Below, piece by piece: positions 8,776 to 17,620 of a DNA stretch of 33,623 bases. A program made the position numbers and the translations under genes. Source of the DNA: Candidatus Aminicenantota bacterium (GTDB taxonomy: Bacteria > Acidobacteriota > Aminicenantia > Aminicenantales > Saccharicenantaceae). Under the pieces are notes generated by a model. The model had not been told where the DNA came from, searched no databases, and saw only the letters and a list, made by a program, of their open reading frames with translations. The stretch spans positions 1-33,623 of the forward strand of contig PNJE01000063.1 in NCBI GenBank assembly GCA_002877915.1, read 5' to 3'. Positions within the stretch are counted from its first letter, which is position 1; each line of letters starts with the position of its first letter.

Positions 8776-9850
8776 AAGCCGGAAAGACCAAAGCCGATAA
8801 GAAAAGAACAAAAAGATAAGAAAAGACAAAAAGATATAGAGATGATTTTTTAGATCTCTCCTCAGGCCAATTAATCCCCTGGCCAGGTTGAGGCAAAGGC
8901 TGAGGATCCCAGGGCAGATTATAACGTTGAACTAAACTCCGAATATTAAGCAGGTGAATTACCGGAATGCCCTTAGCCGACATTTCCTGGATTAGGCCGC
9001 GCTTTTCAGGTGGCGGTAATTTTTTTACATTGGCAAGTCCAGGCGGTAATTCCAGAATGGATGAATCTCTACCCAAATTTACTAAGCTGCCACCCGCATT
9101 GATAAATGCCTTTATCCCACCCGGTGAATTTATTTCATAAAGATACAGATGTTTCTGAACCTTTTCTTGGAATTTTTCACCTTCCAGAAATTTAATTCCT
9201 AAATGGGCGGCTTTTTCTCTGAGTTTCAATTTCAAATCTTCGGGAAATTCTCTTCCCGAATCATCTTCCCCTCCCCAAGAAATCGCCAGAAAGTGGTAAT
9301 GATCAAAGCCAGCTAATCGCCAGCATTCCTCCAGGTCGAGAATAGAAAATTCAGGATTATTAGCCCCCCACTGAGAAGCTCCGACCGAAGCAATAATCGT
9401 AAGGTTAGCCTTGAGAGCCTCAGCCGCACAAATAGAAGCGAGGATTAGAGCCGGGAAAGAACCCGAAGCCCCGAGGGCAAAGTAATCTCCTTCTTTTACT
9501 CCGGCTTTTTCCAGCAGATGAACCAGGAGGGCGGCCATATTGGGATTAGTGGTGGTTCTTTTAGCCTCGAGATTTCCAAGGGTGGTGGTTAGGGGACTAT
9601 GTTCCAGGCCAATTAAACCGGTTTTATTCAGGTCAAAAAAGTTTTTCTCCGGCTGTAATCCCCTTTTTTTTTCGCAGGAAAAGGTTATTTTTTCAGCTTC
9701 CAACATAAGCCGAGCAGCTTTAATTTCAGTTAGCTTTGCCCCATTATTTTTAGGCCGAGGTTGAATCATTCCTAAATAAAGAAAATAAAAAATGAGGCTG
9801 ACGGCAGCTAACAGATAAAGTGTTATAGAGTTTATTTTTGGTTTAGGCAT
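8741..9850 (-). CDS. pgsW: Poly-gamma-glutamate system protein (PgsW-type)
   Basis: 369 residues with one membrane helix at the N-terminus (about 10-28) and another near the C-terminus (about 338-360), leaving a large domain on one face of the membrane. The middle carries stretches typical of the poly-gamma-glutamate system protein family: GLIGLEHSPLTTTLGNLEAK, FALGASGSFPALILASICAA and IASVGASQWGANNPEF. Its biochemical role in that system is not established. The start codon shares its A with the stop of pgsC (TGATG), so translation is coupled. It is the third gene of a pgsB-pgsC-pgsW operon, and no pgsA (CapA-type hydrolase) is present. Its end runs 35 bases into the M14 gene on the other strand. 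Confidence 0.85.
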   Translation of the reverse strand: MPKPKINSITLYLLAAVSLIFYFLYLGMIQPRPKNNGAKLTEIKAARLMLEAEKITFSCEKKRGLQPEKNFFDLNKTGLIGLEHSPLTTTLGNLEAKRTTTNPNMAALLVHLLEKAGVKEGDYFALGASGSFPALILASICAAEALKANLTIIASVGASQWGANNPEFSILDLEECWRLAGFDHYHFLAISWGGEDDSGREFPEDLKLKLREKAAHLGIKFLEGEKFQEKVQKHLYLYEINSPGGIKAFINAGGSLVNLGRDSSILELPPGLANVKKLPPPEKRGLIQEMSAKGIPVIHLLNIRSLVQRYNLPWDPQPLPQPGQGINWPEERSKKSSLYLFVFSYLFVLFLSALVFPAFIHKKHGRILP

Positions 9851-10284
9851 CAGTATAACAGCCGGCTGATAAAAAAAGTCAAAACAGAAACCACTATCAG
9901 AGAAGCCAAGGTTGGCAGCATTTTTTGTCTTTCTAAATTAGAAGTTAGGATTCCTGGCACTACCCAGCCAATAACCCTTAACCCGATTGGTTCAGAAAAA
10001 AGGTGGGGCAAAATTAGAGCCCAGACCTGGCCCAATAGGGCACCGCCCAGAATCATAAAAACAAACCGCCGGCGGCCAAACAAAATAAAATAGCGAAATA
10101 GCCAGCGATAAATTACCAGCAATAATAGCGCCACCAGGATGGTGGCCACCGGCCTCCAGGGCTGATCAAGATAAAGAGAAAAATAGGCTGGCACAATTAA
10201 CCCGCCAGGAGATACACCTGTTATTTCTACATAAATCAAAGAAAGTACCAGACCAAGAAATAGGCTATTATAATTTAAGGGCAT
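9850..10284 (-). CDS. pgsC: Poly-gamma-glutamate biosynthesis membrane protein PgsC/CapC
   Basis: 144 residues, nearly all hydrophobic, with four or five helices. This is the length and character of PgsC/CapC. The N-terminal half carries YVEITGVSPGGLIVPAYFSL, the family's typical Glu-Thr-Gly...Pro-Gly-Gly segment. The C-terminal half has WVVPGILTSNLERQKMLPT, also typical. In known systems PgsC forms a membrane complex with the ligase PgsB for synthesis and export of poly-gamma-glutamate. Its start lies 17 bases inside pgsB and its stop overlaps the pgsW start, so all three are translationally coupled. Assignment is firm; whether a polymer is actually made here is unknown. Confidence 0.92.
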   Translation of the reverse strand: MPLNYNSLFLGLVLSLIYVEITGVSPGGLIVPAYFSLYLDQPWRPVATILVALLLLVIYRWLFRYFILFGRRRFVFMILGGALLGQVWALILPHLFSEPIGLRVIGWVVPGILTSNLERQKMLPTLASLIVVSVLTFFISRLLY

Positions 10285-11527
10285 GAGCCGTCCTTTCCAG
10301 ATAATCTATTATTTCCTGACCGGGGCCGACAATATTGCCCAGGCCGAAAATAACTACGTGTCCGACCGAAGACCTGGTCAAATTATCGCCAGTTTCCAAA
10401 GCTGAATTCAAGGAAGAGCTGGATAATTCGGACGGGGGAAAGGAAAATGGTTGAGAGGAACCAACAGAAGCCTTAAAAATTTTAAGCTGGGAAATTGCTT
10501 CTTTAAGAATTTTTTCCGGCTTCTTTTCTTTAATTATTCTGACTCGGCTTTCAAGTGAACATCTTTTTCTCCTCAAATACCTGGCTGCCGCCTGGCTGCC
10601 AGGACCAGAGAAAGCCAGAAGTTGCCAATGGCTTTTTATAAAGCTTTCTTTTTCCCCAGATTCTAGAAGATAATCGAGCCATTGCCGAGTTCGATCTCCT
10701 CGGTCTGGACGAAGAATCAAGACCGCCGCCATCGGCCGGCTTTCCCAGCCCATTTTCTTAATAATCATTTTCATGGCTTCCTCGGTTGACTTGGGATCAT
10801 TAGCGGCAAAGAGGCTGACAAAATTAAAGGTTAGGCCTTCACCCTCAAATGTTTTCTCCCAGGCTCGGAGACAGCCATAATCCGGATGGACCTGAATTAA
10901 TCCTTCCCGAATTTCTTCTTCTTTCAAACCAAACTCTTTTAAAACGGCTATCGCCAATCGGACATTAACCTCAAATTCCGGGTAAGGTAGCGAACGAACC
11001 AGGTCAGTTGAAAATGAATTTTTATCGATTTTAAAGAGTGAGGAACAAGCCTTTCGGGCCAAATTTTCAACCGGCTCAATAGCTTCCTCACCTGGAGTAA
11101 AAATTTTCAATGACTTTAAAAAAGCTGAAGAGAGAGAGACGGCAATTTGTTCTTCAGTTTGACCCAGTTCTTCAAGGTGATCAGGTCTGATATTGCTTAA
11201 AACCAAAATCTCCGGTTTAATCAGATGGCTACTTTCTACCCGCAAACACTCTGGTCGAATGCTCATCATTTCGGTTACCAGAAAATCGACCTTTTCTCTA
11301 ACTGCCTTTCTGATGAGTCTCTTCTGCTCGAGAATAGTCGGCTGCCCTCTTCTCTTTATTTGCTCTTCTTGACCATCAGGATAGATTAAAACGGGCTTGG
11401 AACCGGTAGTCTTGGCCATAACTCTATAACCTGCCCCCCTTAACCCGGCAGCAATCAGTCTGGTGATGCTGGATTTTCCCCTGATGCCGGTGATAGCCAG
11501 GCGATGAGGGATTTTACCCAGGGCCAT
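10268..11527 (-). CDS. pgsB: Poly-gamma-glutamate ligase PgsB/CapB, N-terminal helix apparently out of frame
   Basis: An ATP-dependent amide ligase related to Mur ligases, which in characterised systems polymerises glutamate through gamma linkages. 419 residues from the ATG at 11527. The P-loop ITGIRGKSS is at residues 12-20, followed by AKTTGSKPVLIYPDG, then TEMMSIRPEC and SNIRPDHLEELG as in PgsB. FAANDPKSTEEAM, LRPDRGDRTRQW and the C-terminal FGLGNIVGPGQEIIDYL also match the family. PgsB normally begins with a membrane helix. Such a helix is encoded just upstream (11514-11594) but one frame away, across a T6 run. Either translation really begins at 11527 (GGGAAGCAGG lies upstream) and the anchor is lost, or a one-base difference hides the native start. 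It heads the pgsB-C-W operon. Confidence 0.9.
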   Translation of the reverse strand: MALGKIPHRLAITGIRGKSSITRLIAAGLRGAGYRVMAKTTGSKPVLIYPDGQEEQIKRRGQPTILEQKRLIRKAVREKVDFLVTEMMSIRPECLRVESSHLIKPEILVLSNIRPDHLEELGQTEEQIAVSLSSAFLKSLKIFTPGEEAIEPVENLARKACSSLFKIDKNSFSTDLVRSLPYPEFEVNVRLAIAVLKEFGLKEEEIREGLIQVHPDYGCLRAWEKTFEGEGLTFNFVSLFAANDPKSTEEAMKMIIKKMGWESRPMAAVLILRPDRGDRTRQWLDYLLESGEKESFIKSHWQLLAFSGPGSQAAARYLRRKRCSLESRVRIIKEKKPEKILKEAISQLKIFKASVGSSQPFSFPPSELSSSSLNSALETGDNLTRSSVGHVVIFGLGNIVGPGQEIIDYLERTAHALKL

Positions 11528-11600: not shown

Positions 11601-12002
11601 TTAAAAATTTATCTTAATTAACCGGGCTTTTATCTCATCTATTTCCCTGGGCCAATCGATGCTCAGGACCATGCTACTAACCTTGATAATAGGGATGGCA
11701 TCTTTGATTCTTACACCCAGGTTTTTCTCTGACAAATAAAGAGCTGGCTTGACAGGCATAACAATTTCCTCTTTTGGAATTAATTCATTTATTCCCCTGT
11801 TGCCTCTGAAATGTCCAATTACCTGCCCCCGCCGACCTTTAAATCTCCTGAGATCCAAAAGCGAGTCTTTAGCTTCATTTCTTTTACCCTTTTCTATCAG
11901 ATCTTCTCTAATGAGTTTAATAAAAATGGGCCAGCAGTGCAATTTATAATATTCTGAGGGGCAAAAAAATTCTTTCCGATATTCCAGAAATTTGATTCTC
12001 AA
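11601..12002 (-). CDS. Uncharacterised 133-codon frame upstream of pgsB
   Basis: I do not recognise this protein. It would start at a TTG (an in-frame stop lies just upstream), with no visible ribosome site. It is basic and contains KGRRGQVIGHFRGNRGINEL near the middle and a C-terminal half of alternating strand-like segments (EEIVMPVKPALYLSEK, IPIIKVSSMVLSIDWP). No signal peptide or membrane helix is seen. Its stop lies only six bases before the ATG that begins the PgsB helix, which suggests an operon link. The poor start suggests a remnant of a longer gene or a chance frame. Confidence 0.35.
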   Translation of the reverse strand: MRIKFLEYRKEFFCPSEYYKLHCWPIFIKLIREDLIEKGKRNEAKDSLLDLRRFKGRRGQVIGHFRGNRGINELIPKEEIVMPVKPALYLSEKNLGVRIKDAIPIIKVSSMVLSIDWPREIDEIKARLIKINF

Positions 12003-12109: not shown

Positions 12110-12198
12110 GAAAATAAGACAGATTAAAAAATACCCTGGCTTCCGCCTAAAAAATTCTGTCCAAAATAGCTTCTAACCTGATTTTTTGGGCTTGAACT

Positions 12199-12236
12199 AA
12201 AAAAAGAAATAGAGGGGTGCCGCCGTGCACCCCTCT
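12199..12236 (-). terminator. Intrinsic terminator of the sigma-54 transcript
   Basis: Read on the minus strand, AGAGGGGTGC and GCACCCCTCT form a perfect 10-bp stem (12211-12220 with 12227-12236) around a six-base loop. It is followed after a few bases by a T7 run (12205-12199). It lies four bases beyond the stop of the small frame at 12240 and about 240 bases downstream of the sigma-54 start point. Confidence 0.8.
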
Positions 12237-12239
12237 GAT

Positions 12240-12473
12240 TTAATTGAAGGAAGGGGGAATGGAAAGAAGGGCAAAGAAGGGCAAAAAGGAGGCAATTATA
12301 AAATTTTTGGTGCGCTCATCGTCTTTAAGGGAAAATAAAAGTGAGGGAGAAATTGGATTCTTTGGCTCATGTATCTTCGACTTCTCCCTCCCTAATCCAG
12401 CAAAATAATCTATATATATTGGCTTTCTATCATTAGCCTTTATATCCATTTTCTTCATCAACATTTTTCGCAC
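12240..12473 (-). CDS. Possible small protein within the sigma-54 transcript
   Basis: A 77-codon frame from GTG 12473, or 74 codons from ATG 12464, ends four bases before the terminator stem. The predicted leader is only 4-13 bases, with GGCGGGTG as a possible ribosome site for the ATG. The product is lysine-rich at the start (MLMKKMDIKANDRKP), then has a polar middle and a hydrophobic C-terminus (IIASFLPFFALLSIPPSF) that could insert in a membrane. I know no such family. The fit to the transcript limits supports it. The very short leader and the C/T-rich 3' part, which also makes sense as RNA, argue against it. Confidence 0.35.
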   Translation of the reverse strand: MRKMLMKKMDIKANDRKPIYIDYFAGLGREKSKIHEPKNPISPSLLFSLKDDERTKNFIIASFLPFFALLSIPPSFN

Positions 12474-12486
12474 CCGCCTTTATAAG

Positions 12487-12503
12487 TAGCAAATTTCGTG
12501 CCA
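12487..12503 (-). promoter_or_regulatory. Sigma-54 promoter of the small transcript
   Basis: The minus strand reads TGGCACG-AAAT-TTGCTA, a full match to the sigma-54 consensus (TGGCACG-N4-TTGCW). The GG (12502-12501) and GC (12490-12489) are separated by the required 10 bases. The predicted start point is about 12477. A candidate activator site lies 59 bases upstream. Confidence 0.9.
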
Positions 12504-12561
12504 ATTTTTATAAGAGAAAACTTGAAAAATTATAAAAAAAGTCATAAAAAAAATTACATCG

Positions 12562-12582
12562 AGCGTAAAGATATTTTACGAA
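12562..12582. promoter_or_regulatory. Candidate activator-binding site 1 (upstream of the small-transcript promoter)
   Basis: Plus strand AGCGT-AAAGATA-TTTTAC, containing the near-palindrome CGTAAA-N5-TTTACG. The same AGCGT-N7-TTTTAC pattern with identical spacing occurs before the second sigma-54 promoter at 13121. Its position about 60 bases upstream of the -24 element is normal for an NtrC-type enhancer site. The regulator encoded at 13162-14532 is the obvious candidate to bind it (inference). Confidence 0.6.
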
Positions 12583-12614
12583 CCCGCAATTTTAATAACT
12601 TGAGAATTAATTAA

Positions 12615-12628
12615 AACTCCGGGAAGTT
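12615..12628 (-). terminator. Weak hairpin after the receiver gene
   Basis: On the minus strand AACTT/GAGTT form a five-pair stem (one G-U) around CCCG, followed by TTTTAATTAATT. It may end the transcript of the receiver gene, whose stop lies about 22 bases earlier. The stem is short. Confidence 0.3.
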
Positions 12629-12649
12629 CAGCTTTTTCGGTTCATAGAA

Positions 12650-13012
12650 TCAAGCTTTTAAAAGCTCGTCTATGGTGTCAGTAAAGGCTTTAAGATCAAG
12701 AGGCTTGATAAAGAGATGGCTTACTCCCACTTGTTGAAGTTCATCAGATTTTAGCTGTTCGGGAAAGGCGGAGATTAGAATAACCTTTCCCTGGTAACCA
12801 GCTCGCCTGAATTCCTGAACCATCTGTAGGCCATTTTTATGTGGTAGCCGGAAATCGGCAATAATTAGATCGACCGGTGCACTTTGAAATCTGGCCAGAG
12901 CTTCCTGGGCATCCCTGGCTAAATAAACATTATATTTAGAAGTCAAAAGAAGAAAAAAAGTTTTTCTTATTGATTCATCGTCATCGACAATCACAATTTT
13001 TTTTTCCAGCAT
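12650..13012 (-). CDS. Single-domain response regulator (receiver only)
   Basis: 120 residues forming one receiver domain and nothing else. The acidic triad is D10-D12 region (IVDDDES), the phospho-acceptor is D53 in IIADFRLP, and the conserved Ser (ISAFPEQ) and Lys (FIKPLD) follow. AGGTGG precedes the ATG. With no output domain it probably acts as a phosphate shuttle or by protein contact. It has its own sigma-54 promoter (13037-13052) and a candidate activator site, so its expression probably depends on the NtrC-type regulator encoded just upstream on the same strand. It may take phosphate from the kinase at 14529-16013 (inference), giving feedback within the circuit. Confidence 0.92.
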   Translation of the reverse strand: MLEKKIVIVDDDESIRKTFFLLLTSKYNVYLARDAQEALARFQSAPVDLIIADFRLPHKNGLQMVQEFRRAGYQGKVILISAFPEQLKSDELQQVGVSHLFIKPLDLKAFTDTIDELLKA

Positions 13013-13036
13013 GAATCCACCTGATTTAAAGGGAAG

Positions 13037-13052
13037 AGCATTTTTCGTGCCA
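13037..13052 (-). promoter_or_regulatory. Sigma-54 promoter of the receiver gene
   Basis: The minus strand reads TGGCACG-AAAA-ATGCT. The GG (13051-13050) and GC (13039-13038) are 10 bases apart. It differs from consensus only by A for T at the first base of TTGC. Predicted start point about 13026, 14 bases before the ATG of the receiver gene. Confidence 0.85.
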
Positions 13053-13120
13053 AAATGGATTAGATAAGCTCAGGCAGAAAAATAGTCAAAAAACTATTCT
13101 AACCGCAAATTTCTTTTCTC

Positions 13121-13140
13121 AGCGTTAATTTTTTTTACAA
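13121..13140. promoter_or_regulatory. Candidate activator-binding site 2 (upstream of the receiver promoter)
   Basis: Plus strand AGCGT-TAATTTT-TTTTAC, matching site 1 in both half-motifs and in the seven-base spacing. It lies 69 bases from its promoter, against 59 for site 1. The 10-base difference, one helical turn, keeps both sites on the same face of the DNA. A related AACCGCAAAT box (13101-13110) also has a counterpart, AACCCGCAAT, near site 1 (12581-12590). Confidence 0.6.
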
Positions 13141-13161: not shown

Positions 13162-14532
13162 TTAGTCAGATTCGGAATTTTCTACTTTGAGGTTATAATC
13201 CTTTATTTTCTTATCAAGCGTTGGGCGGCTGATATCAAGGATCTGGCAGGCTTTGGTTTTGCTGCCCTTAGTCACTTCCAGCACCTGCTGAATATACCTT
13301 TTCTCCACTTCCCATAGGGGAACAAGCTCTCCGGGAGAAAAAATATTTTTCTCTTCTGGAGGTTTAGTCGCAGGCTCAAAGGGCAAATTTTCCTTCAATA
13401 CTATGTCGCCCTTGGCCAGGATTACTGCCCGGGTGAGAGCATTTTCCAATTCTCTAACATTTCCTTTCCAGGGCTGATTCATTAAATATTCCATAACTTC
13501 GGGCGGTACCTTGCGCACATTCTTCTTGAGTTCACGGTTAATCTTTTCCAGAAGATAAGCCACCAATTCTGGGATATCCTCACGCCTTTCCCTTAGAGGA
13601 GGCAAAGTGATCTCTACCACCTTTAAACGATAATAAAGGTCCTCTCTGAATTTTCCCTGCCTGACTAATTCTTTCAAATTCTGATTGGTAGCTGCTATGA
13701 TGCGGGCTTCTGTTTTCAATATCCTTTCTCCCCCGACCTTCATGAAGTCCCGAGTTTCGATAACCCTCAGGAGCTTCGATTGAAGATTGGGAGAGATGTC
13801 TCCGATTTCATCGAGAAAAAGGGTGCCCTTGCCAGCTATCTCAAATTTTCCCCGGGTCTCGGCCACAGCATCAGTAAAAGCCCCCTTAACATGACCAAAG
13901 AGCTCCGATTCTAACAGGGTGTCGGAAATAGCCGAGCAATTAATAACGATAAAGGGTTCATCCTTGAATGGACTATTATAATGAATGGCTTTAGCCACTA
14001 GCTCTTTTCCGGTGCCACTTTCCCCCTGGATCAAAACATTGGTCCTGGTGTTGGCCACCGAGCCAATCAACTTGAAGACCTCTCGCATCTGGGGAGACCG
14101 ACCAATTATATTATCTATTTGATATTCCTTCTGCTTTTCCTCAACCAGATAGCTAACTTTTTCCTCCAAGGACCTCATCTGAAAGGCTTTATCAATGGTT
14201 AGGTCGAGTTCCAGGTAATCCAGGGGCTTAACTAAATATTCAAAAGCACCGGCTTTTATTGCTTCTACTGTTGTTCTCATATCATCAAAAGCGGTCATAA
14301 TCACCACGGAAGTGTTCTTGTTTTCATTCTTGATCTGCTTTAAAACATCCAGTCCATTTATATCCGGCAGCTTGACATCAAGTAGAACCAGCTCTGGCTG
14401 AAAATGGTGAAAAATTTCCAATCCCTCTTCACCACTTTCGGCTATCTTAACTTCAAATCCCCTCTTTTTAAGATGAGACCCCAAGGTACGGCTGACCAAA
14501 GGGTCATCTTCCACCACTAAAATCATTGTCAT
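13162..14532 (-). CDS. NtrC-family sigma-54-dependent response regulator
   Basis: 456 residues in the classical three-part layout. Receiver domain 1-120 with D9/D10 and phospho-acceptor D52 (LLDVKLPD). AAA+ domain about 142-375 with Walker A GESGTGKE (170-177), Walker B GTLFLDEIGD (236-245) and arginine finger FREDLYYRL. A Fis-type helix-turn-helix lies at the C-terminus (SKTKACQILDISRPTLDKKI). The sigma-54 contact loop reads GAFTDA (217-222) rather than GAFTGA; Phe and Thr are kept, so activity is likely. The start overlaps the kinase stop (ATGA), with GGAG upstream, so the two are coupled. It is expected to activate the two nearby sigma-54 promoters. Confidence 0.96.
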   Translation of the reverse strand: MTMILVVEDDPLVSRTLGSHLKKRGFEVKIAESGEEGLEIFHHFQPELVLLDVKLPDINGLDVLKQIKNENKNTSVVIMTAFDDMRTTVEAIKAGAFEYLVKPLDYLELDLTIDKAFQMRSLEEKVSYLVEEKQKEYQIDNIIGRSPQMREVFKLIGSVANTRTNVLIQGESGTGKELVAKAIHYNSPFKDEPFIVINCSAISDTLLESELFGHVKGAFTDAVAETRGKFEIAGKGTLFLDEIGDISPNLQSKLLRVIETRDFMKVGGERILKTEARIIAATNQNLKELVRQGKFREDLYYRLKVVEITLPPLRERREDIPELVAYLLEKINRELKKNVRKVPPEVMEYLMNQPWKGNVRELENALTRAVILAKGDIVLKENLPFEPATKPPEEKNIFSPGELVPLWEVEKRYIQQVLEVTKGSKTKACQILDISRPTLDKKIKDYNLKVENSESD

Positions 14533-16013
14533 GATAATTTCTCCTTAGCCGGGGATTGGTAGGGAAGAGTAATTAGGAAGCAGCTGCCTGGTCCCTCTTT
14601 CTCCACTACTTTAATTGAGCCTCCATGTTGCTCTAAAATCCGGCGGGCATTGGCCAGCCCCAGTCCAGCCCCGGAGCTTTTCGTGGTAAAAAAGGGATCA
14701 AATATATTCTCCCAATCTTTTGGTGGGATACCACAGCCATTATCGCTGATTCGAATCTCTAACTGCGGCTCAGGCCGCCCCCTATTAAGCTCCAAGGAAA
14801 TTTCAATCTCCCCACCTTCTTCTACTGCCTCCAGGGCATTCCGTAGAACATTTAAAAAAACCTGCCTCAATTTATCTCCATCCACGTAGACCAAGGGCAG
14901 GTCCTTTCCCAAGTTTTTCTTCAAAACCACTTTTTTTTCATTAAGAGCCGGCTGGAGAATTTTGAGCGACTCTTCCAGAATTTCTTCCATCGAAAAATAA
15001 TCAAGATTAAGAACCGTCGCCCGGGTAAAGGTGAGTAGTTCTTTAATAAACTTTTCGATCTGCTCGATTCCTTCCTGAGCAATGGCCAGGTGCTCTCTTT
15101 CCACTTTATCCAGCTGCTCATTTTCAGCCAGTTTCTGAATATTTAATTTAACCGAGGTCAAGGGATTACGGATTTCATGGGCAATAGTGGCTGACAGCCG
15201 GCCGATGGAAGCCAGTTTTTCAGCCTGCACTAAGCGCCGATTTGTTTCTTCCATTTTCTGCCTGGCAACGTATAACTGCTCAGCCATTTCATTAAAACTA
15301 CGGGTAAGCTCGCCTACTTCATCTGAGGAAATCACCGGTATTCGGTAGGAAAAATCGCCCCTGGAAATTTGCTTAGTCCCCTCCACTAAATTAAGGATCG
15401 GCCTGGTAATTCTCCGGGCTAAAATATTCGCCCCGAATACTGTCAGAACGAGGATTATAAGGCCAAAACCCATCAGAACCAACCGGGTCTGGTAGATCCT
15501 CTGAAAAACATCATCCAGCTTGAGGCCGATTTTAACCGAGCCCCATTTAGTATCCGAGCCGGGGACAAAAACGGGGATTTCAATTTCCATCACTTCATGA
15601 ATCAGGCCGTTAATCTCCAGTTTAAAATTATGGTAAAAAATTGCTTCGGGGGAAACACTCCCAGCGCAATTTGTTCGGTTAATCACTTCGGAATTGCCGG
15701 CGATATTTTCGCTGATTACCACCGGTCGTCCATCCCGATCATAAAAAATTACGTAAGCCAAGTCATCCCGGACGAGACCCGAAATATTCTCATCAATTGA
15801 TTCTAAATCCCAAAGAGCCAGCCGCCGGGCATTCATTTCGGCAATGTACCTGATCATCACCAGGCCCCGATTTCGCTTCTCCTGATAAATGGCCTGGACT
15901 TCCCTTCTCTGAATCAAAAACAAAACTCCGGACATTAGCAAAATAAGTATGACCGATGTCCAGAACACTAATTGAGCATAAATTGAAACCCGAAATTTTC
16001 TTCTTGGGCTCAT
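14529..16013 (-). CDS. Membrane sensor histidine kinase
   Basis: 494 residues. A first membrane helix (about 13-34), a periplasmic sensor domain of about 140 residues (36-175), and a second helix (about 177-198) lead into a HAMP domain (RRITRPILNLVEGT, to about 250). The phospho-acceptor H279 lies in AHEIRNPLTSVKL. The ATPase domain carries VFLNVLRNALEAVEEGG, ISDNGCGIPP and GAGLGLANARRILEQHGG. It phosphorylates the NtrC-type regulator encoded next. Its start overlaps the stop of the binding-protein gene by four bases (ATGA) and its own stop overlaps the regulator start in the same way. The periplasmic domain probably meets the anchored binding protein, but this is inference. Confidence 0.95.
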   Translation of the reverse strand: MSPRRKFRVSIYAQLVFWTSVILILLMSGVLFLIQRREVQAIYQEKRNRGLVMIRYIAEMNARRLALWDLESIDENISGLVRDDLAYVIFYDRDGRPVVISENIAGNSEVINRTNCAGSVSPEAIFYHNFKLEINGLIHEVMEIEIPVFVPGSDTKWGSVKIGLKLDDVFQRIYQTRLVLMGFGLIILVLTVFGANILARRITRPILNLVEGTKQISRGDFSYRIPVISSDEVGELTRSFNEMAEQLYVARQKMEETNRRLVQAEKLASIGRLSATIAHEIRNPLTSVKLNIQKLAENEQLDKVEREHLAIAQEGIEQIEKFIKELLTFTRATVLNLDYFSMEEILEESLKILQPALNEKKVVLKKNLGKDLPLVYVDGDKLRQVFLNVLRNALEAVEEGGEIEISLELNRGRPEPQLEIRISDNGCGIPPKDWENIFDPFFTTKSSGAGLGLANARRILEQHGGSIKVVEKEGPGSCFLITLPYQSPAKEKLS

Positions 16014-17620
16014 CGGTCTATCCAGGCATCTCTCAAGTTAAGATAAAAAAAGCCCAGAGGCTGGGCTTTTAAGTTCTTAATATATGGTTGATAGGCCATC
16101 CTCTGGTTAAAGTAATAAAGAGGAATGGCCGGCAAGTCAGCTTTAAGAAGAGTCTCTATCTGCCGGAAAATACTTAGCCGACGGTCAAAACCTGACAAGT
16201 TGCTTTGGGTCTCAAGCAACTCATCTACCTGCTGGTTCTGATAATGGAAATAAAGGCTGTTAAAATAAGATCGCGAGTAAAAAAGTGGCGAAATTAAAAA
16301 CTCGGGGTCTGGCAAATTTACCAGCCAGTCAAAATAAACGAGATAAGGAGTCTGTTCATTTTTAATTTCGCTCAAGGATTTAATTGGCCTTAACTCCAGG
16401 TTGATGCTAGCCGGTCGGAGATCCTCTCTTAATTCCTGATAAATATTCTGAACAAGCTCTTTCAGGGGAAATTCAAAATACAAATAAACGGTCAGCGGCT
16501 TAGCTGGATTGCCCAGTCCGGCTTCAGACAAGGTATTATAAATCCGACTTAAATCTGCCTCTTCCTCTCGCTGAATTGGTAAGAAACCGGGCAAAAATGG
16601 AGGTATAAAATTATTAAGCACCTGAGCAAAATAGGCTGGAGAAGAAACTAACCCCGCCAGCCGGCTTTTGTCGATAAATCCAGCCAAGGCTTTTCTGATT
16701 TCCGGACGGTCAAAGGGTGGCTGGTGACAGTTGAAAAAAAGATAGGCTAAATGATTGGAACTATTTTCGATAACCTGATATTTATTTTTAGAAATCCTAT
16801 AAGACAGGTAAGGAACAACTTGGACCTCGTCTCTGAAAAAGTCATCTAAAAGAAAATAAGGGCTGATTTCAATCGTCTGGAGATAAGGTTTCCGCCCGAA
16901 ATATTTTTCATTTCTGGCCAGGCTGATGCCGATAATATCCAAACGAGAGTTTCTAAGCCAGAAATCGAATTTAAACGGGCCCGCTCCGATCGGCTTTTCA
17001 AAAAATCTTCTCTTTTCCTTAAGTATCAGGTTGCGGGGAAGAATTTTGGCAAAGCTGGCGGCTAAAAAATAAAAATTATTTATATTAGGAGATTTCCAAT
17101 CAATTTCCAGGGTCTGGCTGTCAAGTACCTTTAACCCGAGGACTTCTGAAGCCGCTCCTTGCCAAAATTCCTCTCCCCCTTCTATTCTCGAAGCAAACAA
17201 ATAAAAAAGAGGATTTCCTTTGAGCTGGAAGAGCCTCTCATATGAAAATTTTACATCTTCGGCCGTCACTGGTTGGCCATTATGGAAAACAGCTCCTTTC
17301 CTCAAATAAAAGATTACTTTTTGTCCGCCTTCTGAAATTGTCCAGTAGTCAGCCAGGCCAGGGAAAAGGCTCAAATTGCGGTCAAGCCTTAATAAACCTT
17401 CATATAGGTTTTCAATAACTTCCGGGTAACCATTCCCAGCCGGATCCAGGTCCATATTGAGAGTGCGCCCATAAGCCTTGATTCTTAAAATGCCTCCGGG
17501 CCGGGGCTGGTCAAAGCTGAAGGAAGGAGCTGGCAGATTAATACCTGGATAAACAAAAAATAAAAGCAGAAGGATTCCCAGATAATATAGAGGCCAACGG
17601 GAAGAAGGACTTCGACTCAT
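16010..17620 (-). CDS. Membrane-anchored peptide/solute-binding protein (SBP family 5), first gene of the two-component operon
   Basis: 536 residues, with an N-terminal hydrophobic segment (about 9-27) that anchors or exports it. The rest follows the family 5 solute-binding proteins of peptide ABC importers: GGILRIKAYGRTLNMDLDPA at the start of the fold, the VIENLYEGLLRLD segment, then LRKGAVFHNGQPVTAEDVKF (about 127-146) and LPAIPLYYFNQRMAY near the end. No lipobox cysteine and no ABC permease or ATPase gene is nearby. It overlaps the histidine kinase by four bases and is thereby coupled to it. This points to a receptor that presents a ligand, perhaps a peptide, to the kinase rather than to a transporter. 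No sigma-54 promoter is seen before it; its own promoter is unclear. Confidence 0.88.
   Translation of the reverse strand: MSRSPSSRWPLYYLGILLLLFFVYPGINLPAPSFSFDQPRPGGILRIKAYGRTLNMDLDPAGNGYPEVIENLYEGLLRLDRNLSLFPGLADYWTISEGGQKVIFYLRKGAVFHNGQPVTAEDVKFSYERLFQLKGNPLFYLFASRIEGGEEFWQGAASEVLGLKVLDSQTLEIDWKSPNINNFYFLAASFAKILPRNLILKEKRRFFEKPIGAGPFKFDFWLRNSRLDIIGISLARNEKYFGRKPYLQTIEISPYFLLDDFFRDEVQVVPYLSYRISKNKYQVIENSSNHLAYLFFNCHQPPFDRPEIRKALAGFIDKSRLAGLVSSPAYFAQVLNNFIPPFLPGFLPIQREEEADLSRIYNTLSEAGLGNPAKPLTVYLYFEFPLKELVQNIYQELREDLRPASINLELRPIKSLSEIKNEQTPYLVYFDWLVNLPDPEFLISPLFYSRSYFNSLYFHYQNQQVDELLETQSNLSGFDRRLSIFRQIETLLKADLPAIPLYYFNQRMAYQPYIKNLKAQPLGFFYLNLRDAWIDR

Follow-up and report, generated by a model that had tools for sequence, protein, structure and literature searches.

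A palindromic enhancer site shared by sigma-54 promoters in Aminicenantia points to a probable autogenous two-component circuit with its own regulatory RNA

Introduction

In Pseudomonas, the two-component sigma-54 activator CbrAB turns on the small RNAs CrcZ and CrcY through sites located on one face of the helix, and each CbrB site is composed of three non-palindromic subsites (PMC6296734). The Vibrio LuxO-Qrr system similarly uses a response-regulator activator and sigma-54 to drive a regulatory RNA (PMC4878744, PMC10162802). For the PrsK/PrsR pair of proteobacterial PEP-CTERM systems, a 17-nt site ending in TTTACA and sometimes repeated has been predicted about 63 nt (SD 10.6) before the sigma-54 promoter (PMC1569441). 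Finally, the rhizobial NfeR1 (alpha-r14) RNAs are anti-Shine-Dalgarno RNAs with unpaired, ultraconserved CU-rich motifs and are involved in NtrB/NtrC feedback; the motif CCUCCUCCC is found in three hairpins of NfeR1, for which target pairing is proven, and NtrC acts as a repressor of the NfeR1 promoter, which has no sigma-54 signature (PMC10746234).

The Aminicenantia locus described here resembles each of these systems in part. It shares its circuit logic with CbrAB-CrcZ and LuxO-Qrr, and with the former also the placement of sites on one helical face, but its upstream activating sequence (UAS) is palindromic, its RNA has no Rfam match to CrcZ or Qrr, and it belongs to another phylum than Pseudomonas. 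The Qrr RNAs are not known to possess a CU-rich block or an overlapping open frame of the kind reported below. The small transcript and NfeR1 have an unpaired CU-rich motif in common, whereas their wiring differs. Similarity to PrsK/PrsR includes an NtrC-type response regulator with its kinase and a nearly identical site architecture, from which the regulator may be expected to work like PrsR at the promoter. It is nevertheless not classed as PrsR, since it scores 393.2 bits against the TIGR02915 (PrsR) model, below the cut-off of 502.6, and since a search for exosortase (EpsH, PF09721) gave no match in the 92% complete genome under study; 5 of 21 genomes had one. Its candidate targets also differ: they are a receiver, an RNA and an exported protein in which no PEP-CTERM tail was recognised. 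We found no literature on sigma-54 RNAs in Aminicenantes.

Results

Organization of the locus

The window, that is, the whole stretch of DNA analysed (33,623 nucleotides), corresponds to bases 1-33623 of contig C17 from a genome of 2.55 Mb in 187 contigs. Candidatus Saccharicenans and other Aminicenantes assemblies are its nearest named relatives. For comparison, we gathered 70 non-redundant loci from relatives in which both the regulator and the CheY-like gene are present; these are not phylogenetically independent, and counts drawn from them overstate the number of independent events. Genes for a solute-binding protein, a histidine kinase, an NtrC-family regulator and a CheY-like receiver follow each other on the minus strand (Table 1), and the stretch adjoining the CheY-like gene holds no listed open reading frame above 100 aa. 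The regulator comprises a receiver, a sigma-54 AAA+ domain and a Fis-type helix-turn-helix, the Pfam composition of NtrC-family enhancer-binding proteins, and its orthologues are 72-91% identical across Aminicenantia. Two further minus-strand features lie beyond: a short frame at 11601-12002, probably a gene remnant, whose end is like the C-terminus of an aminopeptidase-like gene in a relative (L054:10214-11554), and a CapC-like gene beside a Mur-ligase-like gene at 9850-11527, which suggests a polyglutamate-type capsule cluster.

Table 1. Features of the locus. Positions refer to the window except for the last row; UAS, upstream activating sequence; PWM, position weight matrix.
Feature	Position	Strand	Evidence and remarks
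Solute-binding protein, family 5; first gene of kinase-regulator operon	16010..17620	-	Pfam SBP_bac_5, E=3e-51
Histidine kinase (HAMP, HisKA, HATPase); overlaps regulator gene	14529..16013	-	Pfam
NtrC-family response regulator/sigma-54 activator, 456 aa; presumed UAS binder	13162..14532	-	Pfam Response_reg + Sigma54_activat + HTH_8
Enhancer site 2 (UAS), TGTAAAAAAAATTAACG; centre 79 bp upstream of TGG	13123..13139	-	PWM score 19.5; aligned in relatives
Sigma-54 promoter 2, TGGCACGAAAAATGCT; drives CheY-like gene	13037..13052	-	Conserved 30-74 bp before CheY-like start codon in most relatives
CheY-like single-domain response regulator, 120 aa	12650..13012	-	Pfam Response_reg, E=3.5e-19
Enhancer site 1 (UAS), perfect palindrome CGTAAAATATCTTTACG; centre 69 bp upstream of TGG	12564..12580	-	Sequence; PWM score 19.7
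Sigma-54 promoter 1, TGGCACGAAATTTGCT; drives small transcript, start expected near 12477	12488..12503	-	Sequence, genome scan, alignment conservation
Small transcript, about 280 nt; start inferred from promoter, end from terminator	12198..12477	-	Single copy in own genome
Small open frame, 74 aa from ATG, ending ...ASFLPFFALLSIPPSFN; overlaps CU-rich block	12240..12464	-	Open in 17/17 genomes
Hairpin GGGAGGGAGAA...TTCTCCCTC in transcript	12341..12392	-	Alignment fold: 16/17 sequences, few pairs with double-sided changes
CU-rich block GCCTCCTTTTTGCCCTTCTTTGCCCTTCTTTCCATTCCCCCTTCCTTCAAT, 51 nt	12243..12293	-	100% identical in 17 genomes, every synonymous site included
Intrinsic terminator AGAGGGGTGC-acggcg-GCACCCCTCT + U-rich run	12198..12236	-	Sequence; near-invariant stem
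Third gene of candidate regulon, 352 aa, apparent signal peptide, exported	L173:4171-5229 (contig C124, own genome)	-	Composite pattern

Two promoters share a palindrome

The two minus-strand sigma-54 promoters proposed in the initial annotation are present as placed. Both have GG-N10-GC at -24/-12, agree with the TGGCAY-N5-TTGCW consensus and occupy the same place in relatives, as is characteristic of the sigma-54 class, and they are two of the nine exact TGGCACG-N5-TGCW sites in the whole 2.55-Mb genome. The same annotation had described an upstream element common to both, AGCGT-N7-TTTTAC. This string does occur on the + strand (12562-12579 and 13121-13138), with the T of TGG 59 and 69 bp away, and nowhere else in the genome as an exact match; allowing one mismatch brings no enrichment (32 occurrences versus 38 for the backwards control). 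The element is real, but the string captures, out of register, only part of a 17-bp palindrome, TGTAAAA-N3-TTTTACA, and the string's leading AG is not conserved. As a marker of the regulon it was too narrow, missing a third site in the same genome that the redefined palindrome recovers.

Enhancer site 1 is the sole exact CGTAAA-N5-TTTACG in the genome and is aligned and kept in 17 Saccharicenans genomes. The distances from the centres of the two sites to TGG differ by exactly 10 bp. By itself, the palindrome with one mismatch occurs at three places in the genome, fewer than its backwards control; specificity comes from its pairing with a promoter. Another sigma-54 promoter of the genome (L003, at C51:20442) has TTGCGGTAAAATATC upstream, like half of enhancer site 1; it lacks the palindrome and was left uncounted.

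The palindrome is conserved and helically phased across Aminicenantia

A site matrix was trained on cheY upstream regions only, with the other promoter classes kept as a test. The trained matrix reads TGTAAA-N5-TTnACA, often with a second copy 20 bp away. A UAS at 45-110 bp was observed for 46 of the 69 strong sigma-54 promoters upstream of cheY (the training class), and, among the test classes, for 27 of 30 upstream of the sensor-regulator operon and 35 of 47 downstream of cheY. The remaining strong sigma-54 promoters gave 1 of 19. Over the 70 relatives, the upstream interval of 45-110 bp contains 121 palindromes, compared with 2 between 111 and 220 bp and a single one in the mirror-image interval downstream. 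The distances from centre to TGG cluster around 49, 59, 69, 80 and 89 bp (122 sites), with a phasing of R=0.54 and a best period of about 10.2-10.5 bp that was matched by none of 3000 jittered sets. The notion of a common helical face, initially based on two sites 10 bp apart, is thereby extended to a general rule. The palindrome is conserved across the whole class Aminicenantia.

It could be argued that the shared element is a chance match arising from AT-rich sequence, given that the literal string was picked after the fact and that its one-mismatch version is unenriched. The probability of such an origin is very small: it is refuted by the comparative data, namely the contrast between 121 sites upstream and only 1-2 in each control interval, the class-wide conservation and the absence of any control match in 40 genomes. 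The initial annotation had made its proposal depend on conservation of the element in relatives that keep both promoters and on its concentration near sigma-54 promoters. Once redefined, the element is conserved where the promoters are kept and is found almost exclusively near sigma-54 promoters. At the sequence level it has the properties of a UAS: it is a palindrome that precedes sigma-54 promoters, is kept in relatives and follows the helical repeat.

The UAS is missing before cheY, with the cheY promoter kept, at L076, L085, L088, L093, L095, L096, L124, L126 and L127. Several loci without the cheY palindrome retain a perfect one before the operon. A change from S to T in the recognition helix of the regulator (ISRPT to ITRPT) is found at most, not all, of the loci without the cheY site, which is no more than suggestive.

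The adjacent regulator and its candidate regulon

We searched with a composite pattern, GTAAR-N5-TTNAC-spacer-TGGCAY-N6-TGC, which has about 80 matches in 37 of 40 genomes; the reversed-pattern control has zero. The genome under study contains the pattern three times, twice in the window and once at C124:5268-5348, where the centre is 59 bp from TGG, one further turn closer. The latter site, which about 16 of 19 Saccharicenans genomes share, precedes the third gene of Table 1, whose product has no Pfam or NCBIfam match and whose neighbours are a gene for a GWxTD-like protein and an MltG-like gene. An exported target would fit the published view of sigma-54 as a central controller of the bacterial exterior, as put forward in PMC3162934.

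Outside the genus, in most other families, a UAS, often perfect (TGTAAAATAATTTTACA), and a sigma-54 promoter precede the regulator's own operon. This arrangement implies autoregulation in those families and points to the adjacent regulator as the binder. In the window, a PWM scan found no UAS with a sigma-54 site before the operon start at 17620. Each genome encodes several response regulators with a similar receiver, and some clades drop the cheY site yet retain the regulator gene, so the palindrome might be bound by a different activator or repressor, with the adjacent NtrC-type gene a mere neighbour. This is improbable in view of the sites that, in different families, precede the operon of this regulator as well as neighbouring genes, and of the 17-bp palindrome, tandem copies and phasing, which are typical of an activator contacting sigma-54 polymerase. 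Binding of the palindrome by the adjacent NtrC-type regulator is thus strongly implied by the sequence comparison.

A small transcript with an invariant CU-rich block

Promoter 1 is predicted to drive a stand-alone transcript of about 280 nt with a strong terminator at its end, which had been overlooked in the initial annotation. No recognised gene lies from the promoter to this terminator. The transcript is present in those Saccharicenans loci that extend far enough downstream and was aligned in 17 genomes; an Rfam search returned sub-threshold matches only and no family. Its internal hairpin is deleted in L065. The CU-rich block is unpaired in predicted folds and is directly followed by the terminator, and the same combination of unpaired block and terminator appears in all types of the RNA that were folded. 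From the CheY-like gene to the transcript there are about 1.0-1.3 kb in most relatives of the genus and 146 bp in the window (12504-12649). An ARMT1-like damage-control phosphatase gene fills this gap in one relative (L054:8104-8970), and the gap content is lost in the window and in L070 (346 bp).

Beyond the genus, shorter RNAs with a CU-rich block and a terminator, CTTTCAACTCTCTTCCTTTCAG... or ...CCCTTCCATAACCCTCCTTCTTTT..., occupy the equivalent position and again follow a promoter of this kind. When 613 kb were searched with a covariance model built from one type, the other types were recovered at the syntenic place, with E-values of 1e-5 to 7e-3 for type C, about 1e-4 to 4e-3 for type A and 0.001 for the window (12265-12202, model R2, from other genera), and the converse search also matches at the syntenic place. 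These cross-family scores are moderate and partly borne by the terminator, while the location is specific. Strong matches to model R1 occur in only 2 families among 142 genomes of the class, as one copy each bar one weak second match.

A hairpin and U-rich run after a short open frame are also seen in leader-peptide attenuators, so we considered whether the block and hairpin might serve a downstream gene as its attenuator or leader and not form a stand-alone RNA. We judge this very improbable, since the next gene is convergent in L054 and only the apparent degraded remnant at 11601-12002 lies beyond the transcript in the window. The transcript has the attributes of a small RNA, with its own promoter and terminator and a conserved unpaired segment under RNA-level constraint, and is most likely a previously undescribed regulatory RNA.

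An Hfq-like gene was detected in 20 of 21 genomes, the match in the genome under study being below the Pfam cut-off. In a duplex test against the 27 translation-start regions of the window, the CU-rich block showed no excess over shuffled blocks (-12.9 versus -12.7 kcal/mol); direct blocking of ribosome sites is thus unsupported at the scale of 27 genes. No match to a 16S 3'-end pattern was detected in the genome.

An open frame overlaps the CU-rich block

In all 17 Saccharicenans genomes, the transcript contains an open frame of 37-80 codons that ends in ...NASFLPFFALLSIPPSFN. Over 748 codons it has no stop, compared with 62 and 57 in the other frames and about 50 expected. Its internal gaps are all multiples of three (9/9), several flanking gaps are not, and its stop codon is retained as TAA, TAG or TGA. 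The absence of stops and the gap lengths indicate that the frame is maintained. No amino-acid constraint was detected in the N-terminal part, where pN/pS is 0.86 (0.88 and 1.0 in the other frames). The last 20 codons are invariant with zero synonymous change, pS being 0.001 in the block against 0.47 upstream. The Saccharicenans transcript therefore displays both RNA-level constraint and a maintained open frame.

The transcript could be an ordinary short mRNA for a peptide of 37-80 aa, the invariance reflecting a critical peptide with the fixed hydrophobic C-terminus. The open frame in every genome, without stops, with in-frame gaps and a retained stop codon, is what such an mRNA would have. 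However, the 20 codons lack synonymous change next to a highly diverged upstream part, the N-terminal part is as unconstrained as the other frames, and there is no clear ribosome site. Inspection of the homologous 3' modules of other families also found no conserved frame across the CU-rich block, and type D has TAA just before it. We thus consider this explanation unlikely. Tentatively, one transcript may instead have two jobs, the CU-rich block being a class-wide RNA module whose nucleotides are translated in Saccharicenans as the C-terminus of a peptide; this is possible, at somewhat under even chances. If so, translation and regulatory activity of the RNA could control each other.

At L108, about 2317 bp past the CheY-like stop, a palindrome and sigma-54 promoter drive a 29-aa hydrophobic frame ending in SIHPSLTF, which recalls the Saccharicenans C-terminus SIPPSFN.

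Discussion

The sites and promoters, their phasing and conservation, the RNA-level constraint and the open frame are directly seen, and from them we propose that the locus is probably an autogenous two-component/sigma-54 circuit that is conserved in Aminicenantia and includes a regulatory RNA of its own. An extracytoplasmic signal would be sensed by the periplasmic binding protein together with the histidine kinase, leading to phosphorylation of the NtrC-type regulator. The latter is predicted to bind the 17-bp palindromes, located integral helical turns upstream of sigma-54 promoters (centres at about 49-89 bp), and to activate sigma-54 polymerase by looping. Its targets in the genome under study would be the CheY-like receiver, which is probably a phosphoryl sink or output partner, the exported 352-aa protein and the RNA of about 280 nt. 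The RNA may act post-transcriptionally through its CU-rich block, by pairing with purine-rich mRNA sites or by titrating an RNA-binding protein. We infer from sequence that the regulator binds, which kind of signal is sensed, how the RNA works and what the CheY-like protein and the peptide do.

For a class represented here almost entirely by metagenome assemblies, this analysis provides a concrete enhancer motif with its presumed regulator and candidate regulon. It also predicts a family of small RNAs that Rfam lacks. The invariant RNA block that overlaps a maintained open frame offers a clean test case for dual-function RNAs. Two-component activators that switch on an adjacent RNA are known from Pseudomonas and Vibrio, and if Acidobacteriota use them as well, this would suggest that the circuit design is a recurrent one.
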